Shown one piece after another: positions 29,778-64,000 of a DNA stretch of 64,000 nucleotides. Each line of letters begins with the position of its first letter. Position 1 is the stretch's first letter. The notes under the pieces were generated by a model, which was not told the origin of the DNA, did no database searches, and saw nothing but the letters and a program-made list of their open reading frames with translations. This DNA comes from Pholiota molesta. Its lineage: Eukaryota > Basidiomycota > Agaricomycetes > Agaricales > Strophariaceae. Both the position numbers and the translations under genes were made by a program. The stretch spans positions 124,001 through 188,000 of the forward strand of contig JACGCK010000040.1 of assembly GCA_014925825.1 (NCBI GenBank), given 5' to 3'.

Positions 29778-29786
29778 AGTTCTAGT
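29778..29786. repeat. 9-bp target-site duplication, left
   Basis: AGTTCTAGT immediately left of the element terminus TAGTCT. The identical 9-mer follows the right terminus at 35530-35538. Because TA follows in both flanks, a two-base shift is possible. Signature of DNA-mediated transposition. Confidence 0.82.
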
Positions 29787-29838
29787 TAGTCTCTCTAGAC
29801 AGACCAAATAATAGATGACAATCGATCTATATATATAA

Positions 29839-29883
29839 GGTCTGTTCCGATATTTGGGCCCCTTGGTGGTTGGGTCCATTCGG
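29839..29883 (+). repeat. Left terminal inverted repeat block (inner)
   Basis: Matches the reverse complement of 35484-35529 over about 45 bp; the strongest shared core is CTTTGGTGGTTGGGTCC versus CCTTGGTGGTTGGGTCC, with CCGATATnTnGG outside it. A 52-bp stretch between the outermost TAGTCT and this block is absent from the right end. Confidence 0.75.
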
Positions 29884-30076
29884 CCTTCTCGGTGATCCCG
29901 CATCAAAATTGCGAGTCCTTTCGCGATCACGTGTCACAGACATCAATGTGCGCGATGACATAGTGTGCTGCTAAAACATGTCTTCAACATGTCTTAGAAT
30001 TGCTGTAGAGGTGTCGTTCTCGTCGTTGTAGATAGAATATGTCAACTAAAATTTATTTCACCATCTATCGAATAAC

Positions 30077-33000
30077 ATGGAACCATCAAATCCATTTTAC
30101 GAGCCTTCCGAACCTGCAAACCGACGCCGTCCTATCGTACACTTCAATCCGTCTGGTAGCAGCCAAGGTCAAACACCTGTAAGACCGCCAAGCAGCCATT
30201 TACCAACACCAACAACACGCCAGAGCCCTCGAACTGATACCAACAAGCTTGATGCAGTCTTGGATGCAATAGAGAATGCAGGTTGGACCCTCCCAAAATT
30301 CCTTGAGAAGCTTCTTCAGGTTGAAGAAACCAAGGGCGGCAAAATCCAGCCTGTCAAACGAACCCAGAGACATCAACGGGTCATGAACTCCATGCTAAGT
30401 GGTCAATCAAAGCCATACCTGGGTACCATTCTCAGCCTCCTGGAGCAAAATGCTAGAGACGTTAGCTTTCTTGGAAGCGACACAAGTATTCCTCCTGGGA
30501 CAAATATGTTTGCGCCCAACACTCCTTTAGCACAGATCAGACATGCGACGCCAGCAATGACTACGTGGGCCATTCAGTTAGCTGGCGAAACTGTACACCA
30601 GGAGGGTCAAGCCATGACACAAAGACCTGCAGGGCTTCACTCACGCGCACAGACATCTAACACCCGTCGAGTTGATGAACAGATTACATGGGACACTATT
30701 TCGACGCTCAGCTTAAAGCGGCTCGAAGAAAACACAGAGACACACGCACCAGCCACCTCATTTGTACTGAAAGCATATTCCCTGAAAGACTTCAACAGCC
30801 GCAATCCTTCCAACAGTATGCCATCAAATAACAGCGTTATCGCTGTGCGTTCGTACCGCCCGCAGAATATGGTGAGCTCTGTCAATTGAAGTCTGGATAT
30901 GATCTATTAACATGCTGAATAGACACGTCTAAATGCAATGATGGCACTCACATTTGCCCGCTCGAACCGAGCAAGTCTATATCCTCTTTGCCGTGGAATA
31001 TGGTTGTTTGCTGCGAAAGCATCGCGCACAATATTTCGTGTCGAAAGTCGAATTGGACAGTCTGTCGCTTATTCAACAGTCTATATCGCCCTTCGTGCGA
31101 TGGGTCGACAAAAGCTTGATGACCTACGAAAGGCAATTAAAGCTGGACGACATTTCATCACTGTCAGTGACAACATTCAGACCTACGCCAAACAACGAGT
31201 CCGACGGATTGGCCGAGAAAACCAGATGATAACAGGCCTATCTGCGACGGCAATCGAAATGCAAGACTATGATCCGGAGGCCTTTAATCTTGAAGAACTT
31301 GTTGAGCGCCAGTGCAAACAGGAACGCAAGACACTCACAGCCGAAATGTTACTTGCTGACATTGATAGTGACCGACTTCATCACGTCGCTACAGTGGAAT
31401 TCTTGGAGGTCTTATTTGGATTTGTTCCTCGATTATCGACCCTGTATCGAAAAGACCTTGACGACTTCATCTCCAAAAACCTAGCAAAGAAACCCATACC
31501 AGGAAATAGACGAACCAAAATCATTCCCTTGGCTACGAATAGTGCTGACGAAATGCATATTCAAGGTCTCAAGGAAGGCGTCCTTGATTTTGCTACAACA
31601 CAGATGGGTATCAACGAGGAAACCTTGAACAATACAGCATCAATATGGGCGGGTGATGGAAAAACATTCAATATGTTCTTACTGATGAAGAAGCTTCTGT
31701 CTCCAGAGGAGAGCAACTTCTCGTCTTTCCGCTGGCTGCAGCCATTACTCGAGCTCTGGCACACAAAATGGACTGATCTTAGTCGAGTTGTTCGGACACA
31801 CTGGGGCACCAAGGATGATCCTTCGTCACTGGCCAAGATTGCTGAGATCGTCAAATGTCCACCGCCTACCGATCTACGCAAAGTTGATTTCTACGATGGT
31901 GCTCATCTCGTAGGAATCACACTTGATGCACATATATTGAGCTGCTGGGAGCTTTGTTTGTCGATAGAAGACCTGACCATGTTCTTCAAGCGTGAAGAGA
32001 ACATGCTATCCTTTGAAACACTGGTCAGTCATGCTCAGAAATTAGGACGGCAATACGCAACGACACAGGCTTACAATTGCGCCTGTAACCCTCCGGCTGG
32101 AAGCAACGAATATCCGGATATGCCACCTGCTGGATCATCAACGCTCGGTACAACTGAAGACGTAAACATGGCTGATATCTTACCTGGTCTCAGGCTGGGC
32201 CTTCCAATGCCCGAACGCTCTCCACTCGCTGACACCACCCTTGCCAATACAATCCTATTTATGCGGAATGCCATTTGGTGGCGCGAAGTGTGCAAAGCAA
32301 TAGCTCACGGAGATTCTGGTCGTGTATGGGAAATTTTGAAGGTATTTGACTCTACAACGAAGCATCAGTGGTATAACTAACAAAGATGAAAACAGTTGTG
32401 GACATTTACCTTTGCAGGGAGTGGAAACCCCTACTACTCCCAATTCTTGCTCGAGACATACTGCAACTTTCGTTGGGAATACGGCGAAAAATTAACAGAT
32501 GCGATCATGATGAATTGGCTGGTCAACCTAAAAGGACGCGAAGATCAATTCGTCGAAGGTGATCTATTACAAGAACATCATAATTTCTGGCTTGAGGATA
32601 TGGCCCAGCACAAGGGCAATGAATTCGACGCGACCTTTTATCGAGAAGTCCTGGCAACGAACGTGAATGATTTTCTAAACCTGAAGGATGAAATGGAAGA
32701 ACAAGTCACACTGAAACCACGTACGAAGAAACATGTCGAGCCACATCTTGATAATGAGCTTGCGGCACTCCTGGCCCACTTCCGAGAGTTCGAACTCCAT
32801 CGATACTGTCGTGGTCGCAATGAAATGGATCCTGTTCAAGATGACTTCGAGGAGGGAATGAAGAAATTGAGCCAAGGGAAAATCGATGATTTCATAGCAA
32901 AAACTACGATAACATCCTCTGTCCTCAAGATGCACAATGATCTATCACGGCCCACTAATATTACCCCACTTGTAGACGCCGAAGCTGAAATACAAGAAAT

Positions 33001-33100
33001 GAATCAAGCAGTTGAGCTCGAAGATATGGAAAGCGCACCTCCAAATCCAATGATCCTGGTCAATGGCGAGATATATACAAATGAATATCCTACAGAATGA
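30077..33100 (+). CDS. DUF6589 protein, putative transposase of the element
   Basis: Three exons, 30077-30871, 30923-32341 and 32396-33100, give 972 aa. The start MEPSNPFYEPSEPANRR is the first ATG after the left end. The first 120 residues are Pro/Ser/Thr-rich. The conserved region resembles DUF6589 proteins: SVAYSTVYIALRAMG, FITVSDNIQTYAKQ (about 340-355), IWAGDGKTFNMF (about 507-518), LLELWHTKWTDL followed by RTHWG (about 540-560), then FAGSGNPYYSQFLLE and LVNLKGREDQFVEGDLLQEH (about 744-799). Acidic residues in SDN, GDG and GRED...QE are candidates for a DDE-type triad; that is inference from motif position only. The C-terminus is acidic. The 3' end overlaps the helicase stop codon by 11 bp. 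Copy 2 (59400-62421) is frameshifted. Confidence 0.85.
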
Positions 33101-35345
33101 AACTTCTCCGATCCGTGAGTTTCTGGCGTTTGCGTGGCGAAAACTGACTGAATGTTTTGTCAGTAATAATTCCCATGGGAGGCTCCCAATCATCTACAAC
33201 TTCATCCACCACAGCCGCGAGAGGCCGTCTTGCAGGTAAACGAATAGTCAGTCGTCCAGCCGAATTTGAGATAGGATTTGATGACGAAGCGAGCGGCGGT
33301 GTGATGGGTGGTTGGTTCTCCTTATCACGTTTGTCTAGAATAAAAAAACTATTAGAATATGTAAGATGTAATATGTAAATGTACCTTTGTTGAGTGCACG
33401 AGTTGCTGCTGCCTTCTTCGCTGCTTCAGCCTTTTTCTTCTCTTTGTCTTCGCGCTTCTGCAGAAGATCTCTGTCATAGACCCGGTTGAGTTTCTCTGCA
33501 AGCTCAAAAAGCGAGTCCCCGTCAGCTTCAAGATAAACCCAGTGCACAAGGTGTTCATCGAGAGAAGCTCGAGAACGCAGCAAATGGAAGAAAGAAAGTA
33601 CTCTTTCCACGGAGGTTCCTTTCCAGAACGACAGGACGTGTGGAATGTTCGCCATCTCCGGCTTTAACCGCCAGCGGGATTTCGCAAGGTGTTCAAGCCA
33701 TATTTGCGCATGTGCACGATGTGGCTTGTTGAGAGGAGGGGGGAGAGAAGGGTTGAGACAAAGAGAACGTGGTTTTGGTTGAAGTGGCGTGGGCGCGGGA
33801 TGTGATGGGGTCGACAAGAAGTCAGACGGTCTCGACGCTGGGGATGGATCGGCCCAAAATGGTTGACAGGCGCTACAAAAATAGAGACGGCCTGCTTCCT
33901 TGCAGGCGAGGCGAGAATTGGGCCCAGGATTACCAAAGGCAATGTTGACAGCCACAATGAGACATTTGTTCTTGATATCATTTTCGAGGAGTCCGCGGAG
34001 TGATGGTTCAAGATTGTCGAGTCGTTTTTGTATCTGGGAAGAAAGCGCCTGTGGTGTGTCTCCATCATCACTCTCTCGCAGAGATAGGTCAGCGCGGATA
34101 GCACTCATAGTCAAGCTTTGGACATATGTCCATCCGTATGCTTCAGATTCGAGGTCACGGCCAGCACGCCCATTTTGCTGGACTAAAACGGACAACGAGC
34201 TCGGTAAACCGAGGTTGATAGAATGGGTGATGTTACGAATGTTCATGCCCATTCCGAATGCGATGGTGGCTACAATAACGGAGGTGTCGATGTTGTCATG
34301 GAAGAGCTCGAGTGTGCGGGCATTGTACGCAGGTGAGGTAATTGAGGACCACAAGCGAACATTTTCGAGTCGTCGAACACCGTCCGGATATAATGACCAT
34401 CCGTAGCTGGCTACGCGGAAGCACAACTCGATTGTTTCACAGTAGACAACAGCCTTGATTCCGCGCTTGAAGACCCATGCAATATCTGGAAATTGGGAGC
34501 CACCAAGCGGGTGGGAGAGCTCCTTGAGAATCATCCGTACGTTCGGGCGTTCGGACGATAAGCGAATGCATTTGAACATGCCGTCTTTGAGATTGAGCTG
34601 TGCGCAGAGCTCACGGAAGTCGTTACCGTCCGAAAGTGTGGCGGTTACGGCGACGAGACCGGTGTGGGAGGGTAGTCGTTGACGAAGGAGACCAATTTGT
34701 TGATATGCTTTCCGGAAGTCCTTGCCCCAAGGGACGAGAACGTGCGTCTCGTCGATGCCGAGAAGGATGAGGTTCTTGCGGAAGGCTGGGTTGCGAATAA
34801 TGGCATCGACTTCGGGCAGGACCAATCTCTCGGCAGATATGAAGACTATCGCGTACTTGCACTCTCGTATTTCATGGTAGAGATTGCGGCCAGCATCACT
34901 TGCAGCTGTGAGAGTCTCGCTGTTGAGCGAAACAACGCTAATGCCAAGTAGTGCAATTTCACGAGCCTGTCAAAAATTAGTCGATGAGAAGGTAACTCAA
35001 GATAACGAGGAGACGTACATGAGCATTTCCGAGCTCAATGAGCGGGGTGACTACGACCACAACTGGGTTACTAGGTATCTCCGGAAGACCTGGTCTTGGA
35101 TGTTGGCGGAGGTGCTCGAGCACGAGGATAGGACCAAAGAAAGCGGCTGTTTTCCCCCATCCAGTCGATGCTATGAGAATAGTTGGGACAGCCTGAAGGG
35201 AGTGCGCCCAGCACTCCACTTGGGAAACATGTGGGCCATTGGGCCATTGAGGTAGTCGCTCTTCAATTATCTCGCGAATGATCGTTTGTCCAATGGTAGA
35301 GATCCACGAGAATCTCTCTTGTGGAGTTGGCGAGGACGACGACAT
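33090..35345 (-). CDS. RecQ-like SF2 DNA helicase of the element
   Basis: Three exons, 35345-35019, 34966-33385 and 33334-33090, give 717 aa. The start MSSSSPTPQERF is 184 bp inside the right end. ATP-binding motif I is ASTGWGKT (about 59-66); motif Ia TPLIELGNAH; motif II DETH (about 181-184, DExH type); motif III VTATLSDG (about 216); motif V region IVATIAFGMGMN; motif VI QQNGRAGRD (about 372-380). These identify a RecQ-group SF2 helicase. After the core there is a Cys-containing stretch (YFCSACQPFW) and a long Pro-rich region, then a Lys/Ala coiled-coil-like stretch (KEKKKAEAAKKAAATRAL). No HRDC domain was recognised. The final exon was inferred from splice consensus and an open frame ending RRSFIL. 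Possibly unwinds the excised or target DNA. Confidence 0.85.
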
Positions 35346-35483
35346 GGAGTGGAAGGGGGACGGCGAGCCATTTAACGCCCTCCAGAGTGAATATAGAACC
35401 TTTGTTTAGCGCAAACGCGTCGCGAACAATCATGCGTGAGCTACACGTGACGATTACAAACTGGAAAATGTACACTATTGCCA

Positions 35484-35529
35484 CCGAAGGGACCCAACCA
35501 CCAAAGAGCCGAGATATCGGACAAGACTA
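35484..35529 (-). repeat. Right terminal inverted repeat
   Basis: Begins CCGAAGGGACCCAACCACC and ends AGACTA at the element boundary. Its reverse complement matches the left end over about 45 bp when the 52-bp left-specific insertion is skipped. Confidence 0.78.
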
Positions 35530-35538
35530 AGTTCTAGT
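35530..35538. repeat. 9-bp target-site duplication, right
   Basis: AGTTCTAGT directly following AGACTA; exact match to 29778-29786. Confidence 0.82.
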
Positions 35539-57234: not shown

Positions 57235-59109
57235 GTTTACGTAAAATTTCGACGTCTACTATGTATCTACTATCTGCTATTGACCTCCATTGACCGATAG
57301 CATTTAGACTTGAAACATTGACTGTTTTGATTCTTCATGAATACAAAAAATACGAAATTAGCGTGCTGGAATGGATCCGGGGCTCGGGGACCGGACTTGT
57401 ATTTCTGATGTGTAAATAAATTTGGGTATTGCGTATACATACCAAAAATAATCGCATGGGCGTCGCAGTTCTTTTTGAGGTGTACGTGCTGACTGGGAAA
57501 TCAAAGAATTGTTTGACGTAGGTATGTAGCTTCTAGGGTATTTGGGTTCTGTCCAGAGTATTCTTATATTTAGAGGCGGGTAAATGATTTTTCTTTTTCT
57601 TTTCGTGGGCGACATCTTTTCGTCCGCTAAGGCCTGGTACATTTTCAGAACGGTGAGGCGGTGCTTCTCAGAGGATATGGTCTGCTCTGTTGCCTTGCAC
57701 AGAAATTGGGCCGTAACTCAGTGCCGAAGTAGAGGACAGACCTCAGATATGGCGTTGATTTGGAGTCAAGGAGATGGTAAGGGGCAGATGTTTTCAATCT
57801 CCCATTCGTTTAGGATATTGTTAGCACCTAGATCTTGTCGGAACAGAAAGATCCAAGTACCACTGTAAACGAATTCCGTCTATTAACTGCGCGTTCTAGG
57901 GAGCGAACGAGTAATAGAATCGTGAATCCCGAAAGCCTTTAGGGTATGTAGAATCTCGAGGAGATTCCAAAATCATAGATTCAAACATGAAACTCCTGGT
58001 CGCAATTCCGAGTCCCGATCATATTTGTACGTCCTGGGAGTGAGGCGTGTAAGAAATGAGCTCGATTTGTTGGGGAGACATGTCAAGTCGTCGTCACCCG
58101 AGTTTGTTTTCGTCCTGAGAACTGGTTCGTAGTCAGAAAAAATGGTCTCATAAGGATCTAGTCCAGGAACCATGATGTGGGCCGTTTGAAGAATCCCCAA
58201 AGGTTCCAATCGCCTATAGTATAATGATTTGCATCACTAAAATTGGCTATGTCAGAGCGCCCGCCGCCCGCGTTTTGACTTACGACAACGAAAGGTATCA
58301 AATGCTTTCCCAATTAACGTTGAGGTAATATTATCACATGTGGCCATGGTAGCGGTGAATCTTGGGTTTTCCACCTGCGGAAGGGAGCCCAATCGCAAGG
58401 GAAAGAAAGGAACCTTAATCCAGCGCTCGGTTGGGTTCCAGCTTGAGGCCATCCTGAGTCACTGCGGCGCAGACAGATAGATACATCGTAGAGATGGCGT
58501 TTGGAGATCGTTGATATCAAAAGTCTCAGCACACGACACGATACCGCAGTTTGTGTTTGTATGCCTCAGCCCAGGAAAAGCAGCAAGAGACGAGATCGTC
58601 GGATGGCAAGATAAGCATGGTACTGGCATAGGCGCTTGAACTTCTCGATACGGCCCCAGGATGTAGTACGAGTCACAAAGGAAGAGATTAAGCAGTGCAT
58701 GGGCACGAAGCCTACTTTTTCCGACGCGTACTTACGAGATACGCGGAAAGGAATTAAAAATCGACCGAGAGCGCGAAGACTACATATCGATCTGTAGAAT
58801 CCCTTGAGAATCCCGGCCGGTGGAGCCTTGAGCCACCCCGAGCCATGTACAATCGCTCCCGATGCTCCTCGTGTGAGATTAGATCGCAGAGAGGAAGGAC
58901 AATCCAGCATGTGTCCCGCAGCGAACGGTGGTTGACAGTGTCGTGGTGCAAAGTCCCAACTCTGCTGCGAGTCACTGCGCCGCAATACAGGAACACGTGA
59001 TGGTTCCTCGACGCTTCGCTTAAGTTTTTATTCAATAACAAGACGGCCCGCGATACCCCGTTGCGGTTCCGCATGGATATTGGGGATGACTCACGACGGG
59101 GCTGTTATG
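57235..59109. other. Intergenic, left flank of the second element copy
   Basis: Minus-strand frames at 57973-58209 and 58252-58452 are somewhat protein-like (HIMVPGLDPYETIFSDYEPV; WNPTERWIKVPFFPLRLGSL), but I could not link them or identify a family. They may be fragments of an old gene. Confidence 0.4.
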
Positions 59110-59399
59110 TAGTCTCTCTAGACAGACCAAATAATAGATGACAATCGATCTATATATATAAGGTCTGTTCCGATATTTGGGCCCCTTGGTGGTTGGGTCC
59201 ATTCGGCCTTCTCGGTGATCCCGCATCAAAATTGCGAGTCCTTTCGCGATCACGTGTCACAGACATCAATGTGCGCGATGACATAGTGTGCTGCTAAAAC
59301 ATGTCTTCAACATGTCTTAGAATTGCTGTAGAGGTGTCGTTCTCGTCGTTGTAGATAGAATATGTCAACTAAAATTTATTTCACCATCTATCGAATAAC

Positions 59400-62300
59400 A
59401 TGGAACCATCAAATCCATTTTACGAGCCTTCCGAACCTGCAAACCGACGCCGTCCTATCGTACACTTCAATCCGTCTGGTAGCAGCCAAGGTCAAACACC
59501 TGTAAGACCGCCAAGCAGCCATTTACCAACACCAACAACACGCCAGAGCCCTCGAACTGATACCAACAAGCTTGATGCAGTCTTGGATGCAATAGAGAAT
59601 GCAGGTTGGACCCTCCCAAAATTCCTTGAGAAGCTTCTTCAGGTTGAAGAAACCAAGGGCGGCAAATCCAGCCTGTCAAACGAACCCAGAGACATCAACG
59701 GGTCATGAACTCCATGCTAAGTGGTCAATCAAAGCCATACCTGGGTACCATTCTCAGCCTCCTGGAGCAAAATGCTAGAGACGTTAGCTTTCTTGGAAGC
59801 GACACAAGTATTCCTCCTGGGACAAATATGTTTGCGCCCAACACTCCTTTAGCACAGATCAGACATGCGACGCCAGCAATGACTACGTGGGCCATTCAGT
59901 TAGCTGGCGAAACTGTACACCAGGAGGGTCAAGCCATGACACAAAGACCTGCAGGGCTTCACTCACGCGCACAGACATCTAACACCCGTCGAGTTGATGA
60001 ACAGATTACATGGGACACTATTTCGACGCTCAGCTTAAAGCGGCTCGAAGAAAACACAGAGACACACGCACCAGCCACCTCATTTGTACTGAAAGCATAT
60101 TCCCTGAAAGACTTCAACAGCCGCAATCCTTCCAACAGTATGCCATCAAATAACAGCGTTATCGCTGTGCGTTCGTACCGCCCGCAGAATATGGTGAGCT
60201 CTGTCAATTGAAGTCTGGATATGATCTATTAACATGCTGAATAGACACGTCTAAATGCAATGATGGCACTCACATTTGCCCGCTCGAACCGAGCAAGTCT
60301 ATATCCTCTTTGCCGTGGAATATGGTTGTTTGCTGCGAAAGCATCGCGCACAATATTTCGTGTCGAAAGTCGAATTGGACAGTCTGTCGCTTATTCAACA
60401 GTCTATATCGCCCTTCGTGCGATGGGTCGACAAAAGCTTGATGACCTACGAAAGGCAATTAAAGCTGGACGACATTTCATCACTGTCAGTGACAACATTC
60501 AGACCTACGCCAAACAACGAGTCCGACGGATTGGCCGAGAAAACCGGATGATAACAGGCCTATCTGCGACGGCAATCGAAATGCAAGACTATGATCCGGA
60601 GGCCTTTAATCTTGAAGAACTTGTTGAGCGCCAGTGCAAACAGGAACGCAAGACACTCACAGCCGAAATGTTACTTGCTGACATTGATAGTGACCGACTT
60701 CATCACGTCGCTACAGTGGAATTCTTGGAGGTCTTATTTGGATTTGTTCCTCGATTATCGACCCTGTATCGAAAAGACCTTGACGACTTCATCTCCAAAA
60801 ACCTAGCAAAGAAACCCATACCAGGAAATAGACGAACCAAAATCATTCCCTTGGCTACGAATAGTGCTGACGAAATGCATATTCAAGGTCTCAAGGAAGG
60901 CGTCCTTGATTTTGCTACAACACAGATGGGTATCAACGAGGAAACCTTGAACAATACAGCATCAATATGGGCGGGTGATGGAAAAACATTCAATATGTTC
61001 TTACTGATGAAGAAGCTTCTGTCTCCAGAGGAGAGCAACTTCTCGTCTTTCCGCTGGCTGCAGCCATTACTCGAGCTCTGGCACACAAAATGGACTGATC
61101 TTAGTCGAGTTGTTCGGACACACTGGGGCACCAAGGATGATCCTTCGTCACTGGCCAAGATTGCTGAGATCGTCAAATGTCCACCGCCTACCGATCTACG
61201 CAAAGTTGATTTCTACGATGGTGCTCATCTCGTAGGAATCACACTTGATGCACATATATTGAGCTGCTGGGAGCTTTGTTTGTCGATAGAAGACCTGACC
61301 ATGTTCTTCAAGCGTGAAGAGAACATGCTATCCTTTGAAACACTGGTCAGTCATGCTCAGAAATTAGGACGGCAATACGCAACGACACAGGCTTACAATT
61401 GCGCCTGTAACCCTCCGGCTGGAAGCAACGAATATCCGGATATGCCACCTGCTGGATCATCAACGCTCGGTACAACTGAAGACGTAAACATGGCTGATAT
61501 CTTACCTGGTCTCAGGCTGGGCCTTCCAATGCCCGAACGCTCTCCACTCGCTGACACCACCCTTGCCAATACAATCCTATTTATGCGGAATGCCATTTGG
61601 TGGCGCGAAGTGTGCAAAGCAATAGCTCACGGAGATTCTGGTCGTGTATGGGAAATTTTGAAGGTATTTGACTCTACAACGAAGCATCAGTGGTATAACT
61701 AACAAAGATGAAAACAGTTGTGGACATTTACCTTTGCAGGGAGTGGAAACCCCTACTACTCCCAATTCTTGCTCGAGACATACTGCAACTTTCGTTGGGA
61801 ATACGGCGAAAAATTAACAGATGCGATCATGATGAATTGGCTGGTCAACCTAAAAGGACGCGAAGATCAATTCGTCGAAGGTGATCTATTACAAGAACAT
61901 CATAATTTCTGGCTTGAGGATATGGCCCAGCACAAGGGCAATGAATTCGACGCGACCTTTTATCGAGAAGTCCTGGCAAGAACGTGAATGATTTTCTAAA
62001 CCTGAAGGATGAAATGGAAGAACAAGTCACACTGAAACCACGTACGAAGAAACATGTCGAGCCACATCTTGATAATGAGCTTGCGGCACTCCTGGCCCAC
62101 TTCCGAGAGTTCGAACTCCATCGATACTGTCGTGGTCGCAATGAAATGGATCCTGTTCAAGATGACTTCGAGGAGGGAATGAAGAAATTGAGCCAAGGGA
62201 AAATCGATGATTTCATAGCAAAAACTACGATAACATCCTCTGTCCTCAAGATGCACAATGATCTATCACGGCCCACTAATATTACCCCACTTGTAGACGC

Positions 62301-62421
62301 CGAAGCTGAAATACAAGAAATGAATCAAGCAGTTGAGCTCGAAGATATGGAAAGCGCACCTCCAAATCCAATGATCCTGGTCAATGGCGAGATATATACA
62401 AATGAATATCCTACAGAATGA
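59400..62421 (+). pseudogene. DUF6589 gene of copy 2, frameshifted twice
   Basis: Corresponds to 30077-33100. One A is missing in exon 1 (59664-59666), which shifts the frame after EETKGGK, and one C is missing in exon 3 (near 61979), after FYREVLA. Splice sites and the rest of the sequence equal copy 1, apart from one Gln-to-Arg change (RENRMITG). If real, this copy makes no full DUF6589 protein and would depend on copy 1; if the changes are assembly error, it is intact. Confidence 0.8.
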
Positions 62422-64000
62422 AACTTCTCCGATCCGTGAGTTTCTGGCGTTTGCGTGGCGAAAACTGACTGAATGTTTTGTCAGTAATAATTCCCATGGG
62501 AGGCTCCCAATCATCTACAACTTCATCCACCACAGCCGCGAGAGGCCGTCTTGCAGGTAAACGAATAGTCAGTCGTCCAGCCGAATTTGAGATAGGATTT
62601 GATGACGAAGCGAGCGGCGGTGTGATGGGTGGTTGGTTCTCCTTATCACGTTTGTCTAGAATAAAAAAACTATTAGAATATGTAAGATGTAATATGTAAA
62701 TGTACCTTTGTTGAGTGCACGAGTTGCTGCTGCCTTCTTCGCTGCTTCAGCCTTTTTCTTCTCTTTGTCTTCGCGCTTCTGCAGAAGATCTCTGTCATAG
62801 ACCCGGTTGAGTTTCTCTGCAAGCTCAAAAAGCGAGTCCCCGTCAGCTTCAAGATAAACCCAGTGCACAAGGTGTTCATCGAGAGAAGCTCGAGAACGCA
62901 GCAAATGGAAGAAAGAAAGTACTCTTTCCACGGAGGTTCCTTTCCAGAACGACAGGACGTGTGGAATGTTCGCCATCTCCGGCTTTAACCGCCAGCGGGA
63001 TTTCGCAAGGTGTTCAAGCCATATTTGCGCATGTGCACGATGTGGCTTGTTGAGAGGAGGGGGGAGAGAAGGGTTGAGACAAAGAGAACGTGGTTTTGGT
63101 TGAAGTGGCGTGGGCGCGGGATGTGATGGGGTCGACAAGAAGTCAGACGGTCTCGACGCTGGGGATGGATCGGCCCAAAATGGTTGACAGGCGCTACAAA
63201 AATAGAGACGGCCTGCTTCCTTGCAGGCGAGGCGAGAATTGGGCCCAGGATTACCAAAGGCAATGTTGACAGCCACAATGAGACATTTGTTCTTGATATC
63301 ATTTTCGAGGAGTCCGCGGAGTGATGGTTCAAGATTGTCGAGTCGTTTTTGTATCTGGGAAGAAAGCGCCTGTGGTGTGTCTCCATCATCACTCTCTCGC
63401 AGAGATAGGTCAGCGCGGATAGCACTCATAGTCAAGCTTTGGACATATGTCCATCCGTATGCTTCAGATTCGAGGTCACGGCCAGCACGCCCATTTTGCT
63501 GGACTAAAACGGACAACGAGCTCGGTAAACCGAGGTTGATAGAATGGGTGATGTTACGAATGTTCATGCCCATTCCGAATGCGATGGTGGCTACAATAAC
63601 GGAGGTGTCGATGTTGTCATGGAAGAGCTCGAGTGTGCGGGCATTGTACGCAGGTGAGGTAATTGAGGACCACAAGCGAACATTTTCGAGTCGTCGAACA
63701 CCGTCCGGATATAATGACCATCCGTAGCTGGCTACGCGGAAGCACAACTCGATTGTTTCACAGTAGACAACAGCCTTGATTCCGCGCTTGAAGACCCATG
63801 CAATATCTGGAAATTGGGAGCCACCAAGCGGGTGGGAGAGCTCCTTGAGAATCATCCGTACGTTCGGGCGTTCGGACGATAAGCGAATGCATTTGAACAT
63901 GCCGTCTTTGAGATTGAGCTGTGCGCAGAGCTCACGGAAGTCGTTACCGTCCGAAAGTGTGGCGGTTACGGCGACGAGACCGGTGTGGGAGGGTAGTCGT
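62411..64000 (-). CDS. RecQ-like helicase of copy 2, 5' end outside window
   Basis: Equals the copy 1 helicase over 33090-34679, with exon 3 at 62655-62411 and exon 2 from 62706 to beyond the right edge. Motifs III, V and VI are inside the window and unchanged; motifs I and II are outside. No disabling change seen in the visible part. Confidence 0.85.

Follow-up and report, generated by a model that had tools for sequence, protein, structure and literature searches.

What kind of genetic unit arises where genes for a DUF6589 protein and a RecQ-type helicase lie together between matched termini and two copies of a short direct duplication? The question is raised by a locus of the mushroom Pholiota molesta, within a stretch of 64,000 nucleotides (GenBank assembly GCA_014925825.1, contig JACGCK010000040.1, positions 124,001 to 188,000 of the forward strand) that is referred to here as the window and supplies all coordinates given without a contig name. 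An earlier note, made from the letters of the window, read the locus as a complete transposon of a kind not yet described. We conclude that the unit is very probably a DNA transposon that moves by cut and paste and belongs to the Academ superfamily, in the AcademH lineage or a close relative of it, with the DUF6589 protein as its DDE transposase and the RecQ-type helicase as an accessory protein. This conclusion draws on the observed ends, 9-bp duplications, repeated insertion, some empty sites, gene linkage and acidic residues, and on a predicted RNase H fold; catalysis by the DUF6589 protein, the role of the helicase and membership in Academ, which rests on printed descriptions, are inferred.

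Structure and copies of the element

The whole element occupies 5743 bp on the forward strand (29787–35529), starts with TAGTCT, ends with AGACTA, and is flanked on both sides by the exact duplication AGTTCTAGT (29778–29786 and 35530–35538), 9 bp being the longest exact duplication that can be read there. The matched termini had been described as carrying an inverted repeat of about 45 bp. Both the termini and an inverted repeat (44 bp, 84% identity) exist, but the repeat is offset, starting 53 bases inside the left end (inner left copy, forward strand, 29840–29883) and 2 bases inside the right end (right copy, reverse strand, 35484–35527), and in register the extreme ends match only over the 6 bp of TAGTCT. 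Outside the inner left copy lies an outer left module of 51 bp (forward strand, 29787–29837), the first 33–51 bp or so of which also stand alone at 17 other places in the genome.

A search of the assembly (65.6 Mb, 625 contigs) returned two further full-length copies, L013 (99.95% identical, 5741 bp) and L011 (98.7%), which have the same end bases as the window copy and differ from it and from each other in their 9-bp duplications (AGTTCTAGT, GCTGTTATG and GGATGCATA). Because two full-length copies share these end bases and carry other 9-bp duplications, the unit in the window is far beyond chance, and the proposal of a complete transposon bounded by an exact 9-bp target duplication holds; neither copy ends elsewhere or lacks its duplication. 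L013 sits 29 kb from the first copy and partly inside the window, where its left duplication GCTGTTATG (59101–59109) precedes a forward-strand element that fills the remainder of the window (59110–64000) and runs on to position 188850 of contig C334. A diverged element of 5692 bp, whose ends are of the same type and which carries the duplication GCGAGTCAG, occupies C522:153236–158927 (L006, L043 and L004), and part of a near-identical one is found on contig C283 (98% over 3.1 kb, flank included), heading to the contig end. The outer module is more alike between the C522 family and that of the window than the inner parts, which are about 70–75% identical. The interior of the C522 element holds an N-terminal fragment 84% like the protein P0002, together with an open frame bearing CxC6, a Pfam domain tied to KDZ transposases, and no DUF6589 domain; this interior may therefore be nested or exchanged.

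The same pattern of ends and duplications extends to the wider DUF6589 family of this genome. Among 20 further DUF6589 clusters, 12 show matching ends together with an exact 9-bp duplication in a scan that called for TA[G/A]NC ends agreeing in 8 or more of their 20 bases and for a duplication of 9 bp with at most one mismatch, and that scored about 0.12 hits per locus on mononucleotide-shuffled sequence; the end motif was picked after the first families had been seen, one locus (L028) gave two candidate pairs, and 8 of the 20 loci gave none. In each of the 13 elements measured, among them the window copy, the exact duplication reaches 9 bp and no further. Of 16 loci retrieved, 11 were single-ended and five were short derivatives with both ends (176–1124 bp); exact 9-bp duplications flank all five. 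One of the short elements, the 1124-bp non-autonomous L074, carries the duplication GGCCTGGTT and is inserted in the end of a relative from its own family.

Empty sites were sought by comparing the joined flanks of 10 insertions with the same assembly (40 of 77 candidates scored; one further search, 40 of 147). A contiguous match to a single target copy was obtained for L010, L013, L018, L020 and L022, the empty L013 target lying on contig C600, and a diverged match for L017; for the window copy, L011, L014 and L015, the 40 candidates scored out of 77 included no empty site.

The DUF6589 protein and its linkage to a RecQ-type helicase

The proposed transposase gene (forward strand, 30077–33100) was delimited from Pfam matches, the open frame and the annotated homologue P0001. 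Removal of two inferred introns (30872–30922 and 32342–32395), supported by splice-like signals and by the open frame, yields a product of 972 amino acids, to which a public Pholiota molesta protein is 99% identical. Pfam PF20231 (DUF6589) matches two of its exons, with E-values of 1.2e-76 and 1.4e-39. The predicted fold of a 76%-identical DUF6589 homologue is that of an RNase H-type DDE transposase, the core that the earlier note had suggested looking for, and the three acidic positions it had tentatively named (SDN near 348, GDG near 510 and GRED...QE near 786–798) correspond approximately to conserved residues. In an alignment of 57 DUF6589 proteins, D347 is present in 49 of the 50 rows with a residue at that position, D509 in 57 of 57, and E773 in all 52 rows with a residue.

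The 57 aligned proteins matched no Pfam family except DUF6589 at E ≤ 0.01, a DUF6589 profile found no match among PDB sequences at E ≤ 1, and Foldseek found none in the PDB at E ≤ 0.001. An alignment-based protein search (7992 candidates scored) returned no animal relatives, all named matches being fungal, and so gives no link to animal Academ elements; the term DUF6589 itself had no match in the literature search. That the DUF6589 protein is the transposase of an Academ-type element is our own inference, as is the catalysis we ascribe to it. Two DUF6589 proteins, P0098 and P0105, carry public names of another kind, such as holocytochrome-c synthase or PI-PLC Y-box protein, though their sole listed Pfam domain is DUF6589; such names probably reflect gene models fused with, or named after, neighbouring genes.

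Convergent to this gene, on the reverse strand, lies a RecQ-type SF2 helicase gene (33335–35345) with one inferred intron (34967–35018), identified by its Pfam, NCBIfam and PDB matches. The protein carries the Pfam domains DEAD and Helicase_C; its top NCBIfam match is recQ_fam, though under the cut-off, and its top PDB matches are RecQ proteins. The 3′ end of the gene is uncertain and the gene may extend further, because the residues just before 33335 resemble, by eye, a read-through intron. The presence of a DUF6589 protein and a RecQ-type helicase inside the unit, as the earlier note had it, is therefore upheld by the Pfam matches.

A genome-wide search gave at least 61 matches to PF20231 in at least 37 clusters, and at least 39 matches to the window helicase in at least 36 clusters. 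Among the matches listed, a helicase match lies within 6 kb of DUF6589 in 32 of the 37 clusters, against about 0.3 clusters expected under random placement, and 4 of the 36 helicase clusters lack a DUF6589 match over the same distance. All 32 pairs are on opposite strands (24 convergent, 8 divergent, none same-strand), two of these linked clusters, both on C152, sharing a single helicase match. The two genes are thus usually found together and not apart. No tRNA genes were found in the window.

Classification of the element

The AcademH lineage was reportedly set out by Kojima in 2020 (Mob DNA 11:15). The phrase 'RecQ Helicase in Academ' was already in print in 2013 (PMC3627910), and a paper of 2019 describes PF00270 and recQ_fam among the domains of fungal Academ copies, which are often annotated as host genes (PMC6416283), so that the claim that no described superfamily pairs such proteins has to be given up. 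AcademH target site duplications are given as 9 or 10 bp (PMC10045372), and the lineage is reported from Basidiomycota, Ascomycota and Mucoromycota (PMC10799480). The Pholiota element resembles these descriptions in each respect: an SF2 helicase of the RecQ family (DEAD, Helicase_C, recQ_fam and RecQ structures in the PDB) stands beside the transposase, the duplication is of exactly 9 bp in the window copy and in 12 of 20 further loci, the host belongs to the Agaricales in the Basidiomycota, and a DDD/E transposase with an RNase H core is predicted from the 76%-identical homologue and the conserved D, D and E.

It could be argued instead that the DUF6589 transposase is unrelated to Academ and acquired its RecQ helicase independently, in which case the unit would represent a separate, undescribed superfamily. 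Several observations weigh on that side: DUF6589 is not linked by sequence to any named Academ transposase, it is absent as a term from the literature searched, and KolobokH, a fungal lineage of Kolobok, also encodes a RecQ helicase (PMC9587614), which means that the pairing of a transposase with such a helicase arose more than once. Set against them, the helicase type, the duplication length and the host group all agree with the printed descriptions of Academ and AcademH, and we regard a separate superfamily as unlikely.

Membership in an established group other than Academ appears more improbable still, although KDZ (Kyakuja, Dileera, Zisupton), KolobokH, Helitron and MULE elements all occur in fungi. 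MULEs make duplications of about 9 bp, as seen here, Helitrons are not known to make a target duplication, and Kolobok elements insert at TTAA; to our knowledge, the transposases of hAT elements (Hermes) and of the P element come without a helicase. KDZ elements share with the Pholiota unit their occurrence as DNA transposons in Agaricomycetes and other fungi, but their duplications are of 7–8 bp, and those of hAT elements usually of 8 bp (PMC12730594), in contrast to the exact 9 bp observed here. The DUF6589 profile, as noted above, has no match at E ≤ 1 to PDB sequences, those of hAT and P element transposases included. KolobokH resembles the unit as a DNA transposon of fungi that has a RecQ helicase (PMC9587614). 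The insertion sites set it apart, since none of 13 elements here shows TTAA and their 9-bp duplications vary. The domains characteristic of MULE transposases (PF10551) and of Helitrons (Helitron_like_N or Pif1; PMC8290104) are lacking in Pfam scans, which detected DUF6589 alone in the transposase and no domain of the KDZ, Plavaka, MULE or Helitron types in either protein of the unit, and exact 9-bp duplications with inverted repeats do not fit a Helitron.

Under the Academ reading, the DUF6589 protein would recognize the related repeats near both ends, excise the element and join its ends to target strands 9 bp apart, which would account for the 9-bp duplications. The RecQ-type helicase would act as an accessory, probably by unwinding the element ends or by helping to separate or repair the cut strands.

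Solo left ends

The left-end pattern, allowing up to three mismatches, occurs at 22 places in the assembly. Of these, five are part of longer elements (two on C334, and those on C147, at C522:153236 and on C283), and the remaining 17 consist of only the first 33–51 bp or so (L007, L008, L029–L032, L035–L042 and L044–L046). The longest, L030, has a 6-bp insertion and extends to position 51; no solo end goes past that position, and the inner right-end-type repeat, extrapolated to its base 1, begins at left position 52. The corresponding search with the right end gave four places, all in full-length elements, and not one right-only end. Two pairs of solo ends share a left flank (L037/L040 and L008/L045), so that there are at most 15 independent sites.

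An exact repeat of 8–9 bp of the left flank directly follows 5 of the 17 solo ends (L029, L030, L031, L032 and L035), whereas none of 268 mispaired controls reached an 8-bp duplication. Empty counterparts were recovered for five of seven solo ends, namely L029, L032, L035, L031 (whose site differs at one base) and L036 (whose repeat is degenerate), and for L030 and L037 none was found among the 40 of 77 candidates scored. Nine other solo ends without the duplication were checked: L007, L038 and L039 have clear empty counterparts, and comparison with these shows an exact join on the left and the loss of the right duplication together with a few further bases; L008, L041 and L044 are diverged, L046 matched another solo end, L042 matched on its right side only, and L040 matched a repeat. 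L037 and L040, whose left flanks are 99% identical over 344 bp, were considered as two repair outcomes of one insertion, a reading that is unsafe because L040 is flanked on the right by sequence that also occurs in repeats elsewhere. The 73-bp end pieces of the L020 family were likewise set aside as solo ends, since the one at L074 is an end broken by another insertion and L067 shows, by eye, no duplication.

The left end (29799–29845) can also form a hairpin in single-stranded DNA, with the stem ACAGACC/GGTCTGT (z −2.8; −3.6 in the C522 family), and most solo left ends stop within its loop side. As a general feature of these elements the hairpin was rejected, since its significance against shuffled sequence held for the elements of the window and of C522 and not for L010, L020, L027 or the right end.

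As an addition to the Academ reading, and with about as much to be said for it as against it, the solo ends may be scars of excision, produced when the transposase cleaves one or both strands 51 bp inward from the left end, at the inner repeat. A cut or stagger at this place, which is the reading we favour, would leave behind up to 51 bp and the right-hand duplication, which would then be trimmed in end joining. The restriction of solo ends to the left (17 places, with none on the right), their halting just before the position equivalent to base 1 of the right end, the duplications in excess of the mispaired controls and the loss of right-hand bases at L007, L038 and L039 all point in this direction, and long staggers have a precedent in the P element, whose transposase leaves one of 17 nt (PMC10983969). 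Excision from an atypical site is the subject of PMC1978519. The chief objection to such scars is that full copies retain the outer 51 bp. Insertion must therefore use the outer end, and since cutting simply at the inner repeat would discard these 51 bp, either the strands are cut at different places or the end is refilled. Excision is further opposed by the absence of the exact 8–9 bp duplication from 12 of the 17 solo ends, by the fact that no locus was seen with a full element in one strain and a solo end in a second, and by scar length, shorter scars having no clear association with a lost duplication (two-sided p 0.05, from hand-entered lengths).

The solo ends could also stem from abortive insertions. 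In these, after the left end had been joined to the target, a short segment would have been copied or taken up and the gap of 9 bp sealed by repair. The exact duplications and empty sites do show that insertion happened, and the one-sidedness would suit a process that begins at the left end. A 9-bp duplication, however, normally requires both ends to be joined, and the lost bases of the right flank resemble end joining after a break; we consider this origin possible but rather doubtful.

Should excision be the source of the solo ends, a more speculative scheme may be outlined, in which the left end combines an outer module of about 51 bp with an inner repeat of the right-end type, and the transposase cuts the two strands about 51 nt apart. 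So long an overlap at the left end would give the element's own RecQ helicase a task, that of parting the overlapping strands, and the scheme, which we put forward only tentatively, would explain both the one-sided scars of 33–51 bp and the retention of the helicase. One-sided solo ends are not mentioned in the excerpts seen of the Academ and AcademH literature, and AcademH did not occur in the 10 papers listed, of 59, in a literature search on its excision and footprints, a result that says little about absence. The solo left ends are possibly new.

Significance

The element is filed here as AcademH-like from printed descriptions, and the pairing of transposase and helicase is itself already known. 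What the locus adds is a concrete proposed role, that of a transposase, for DUF6589, a Pfam family to which no function is assigned and which is present in many 'hypothetical proteins' of mushrooms. This role is supported by the ends of the elements, by their target duplications and by empty sites. Should the solo ends prove to be excision scars, the role of the helicase in the Academ superfamily becomes directly testable. Most notable are the identity proposed here for DUF6589 and the solo ends that occur on one side only; the latter may show how the element is cut out.
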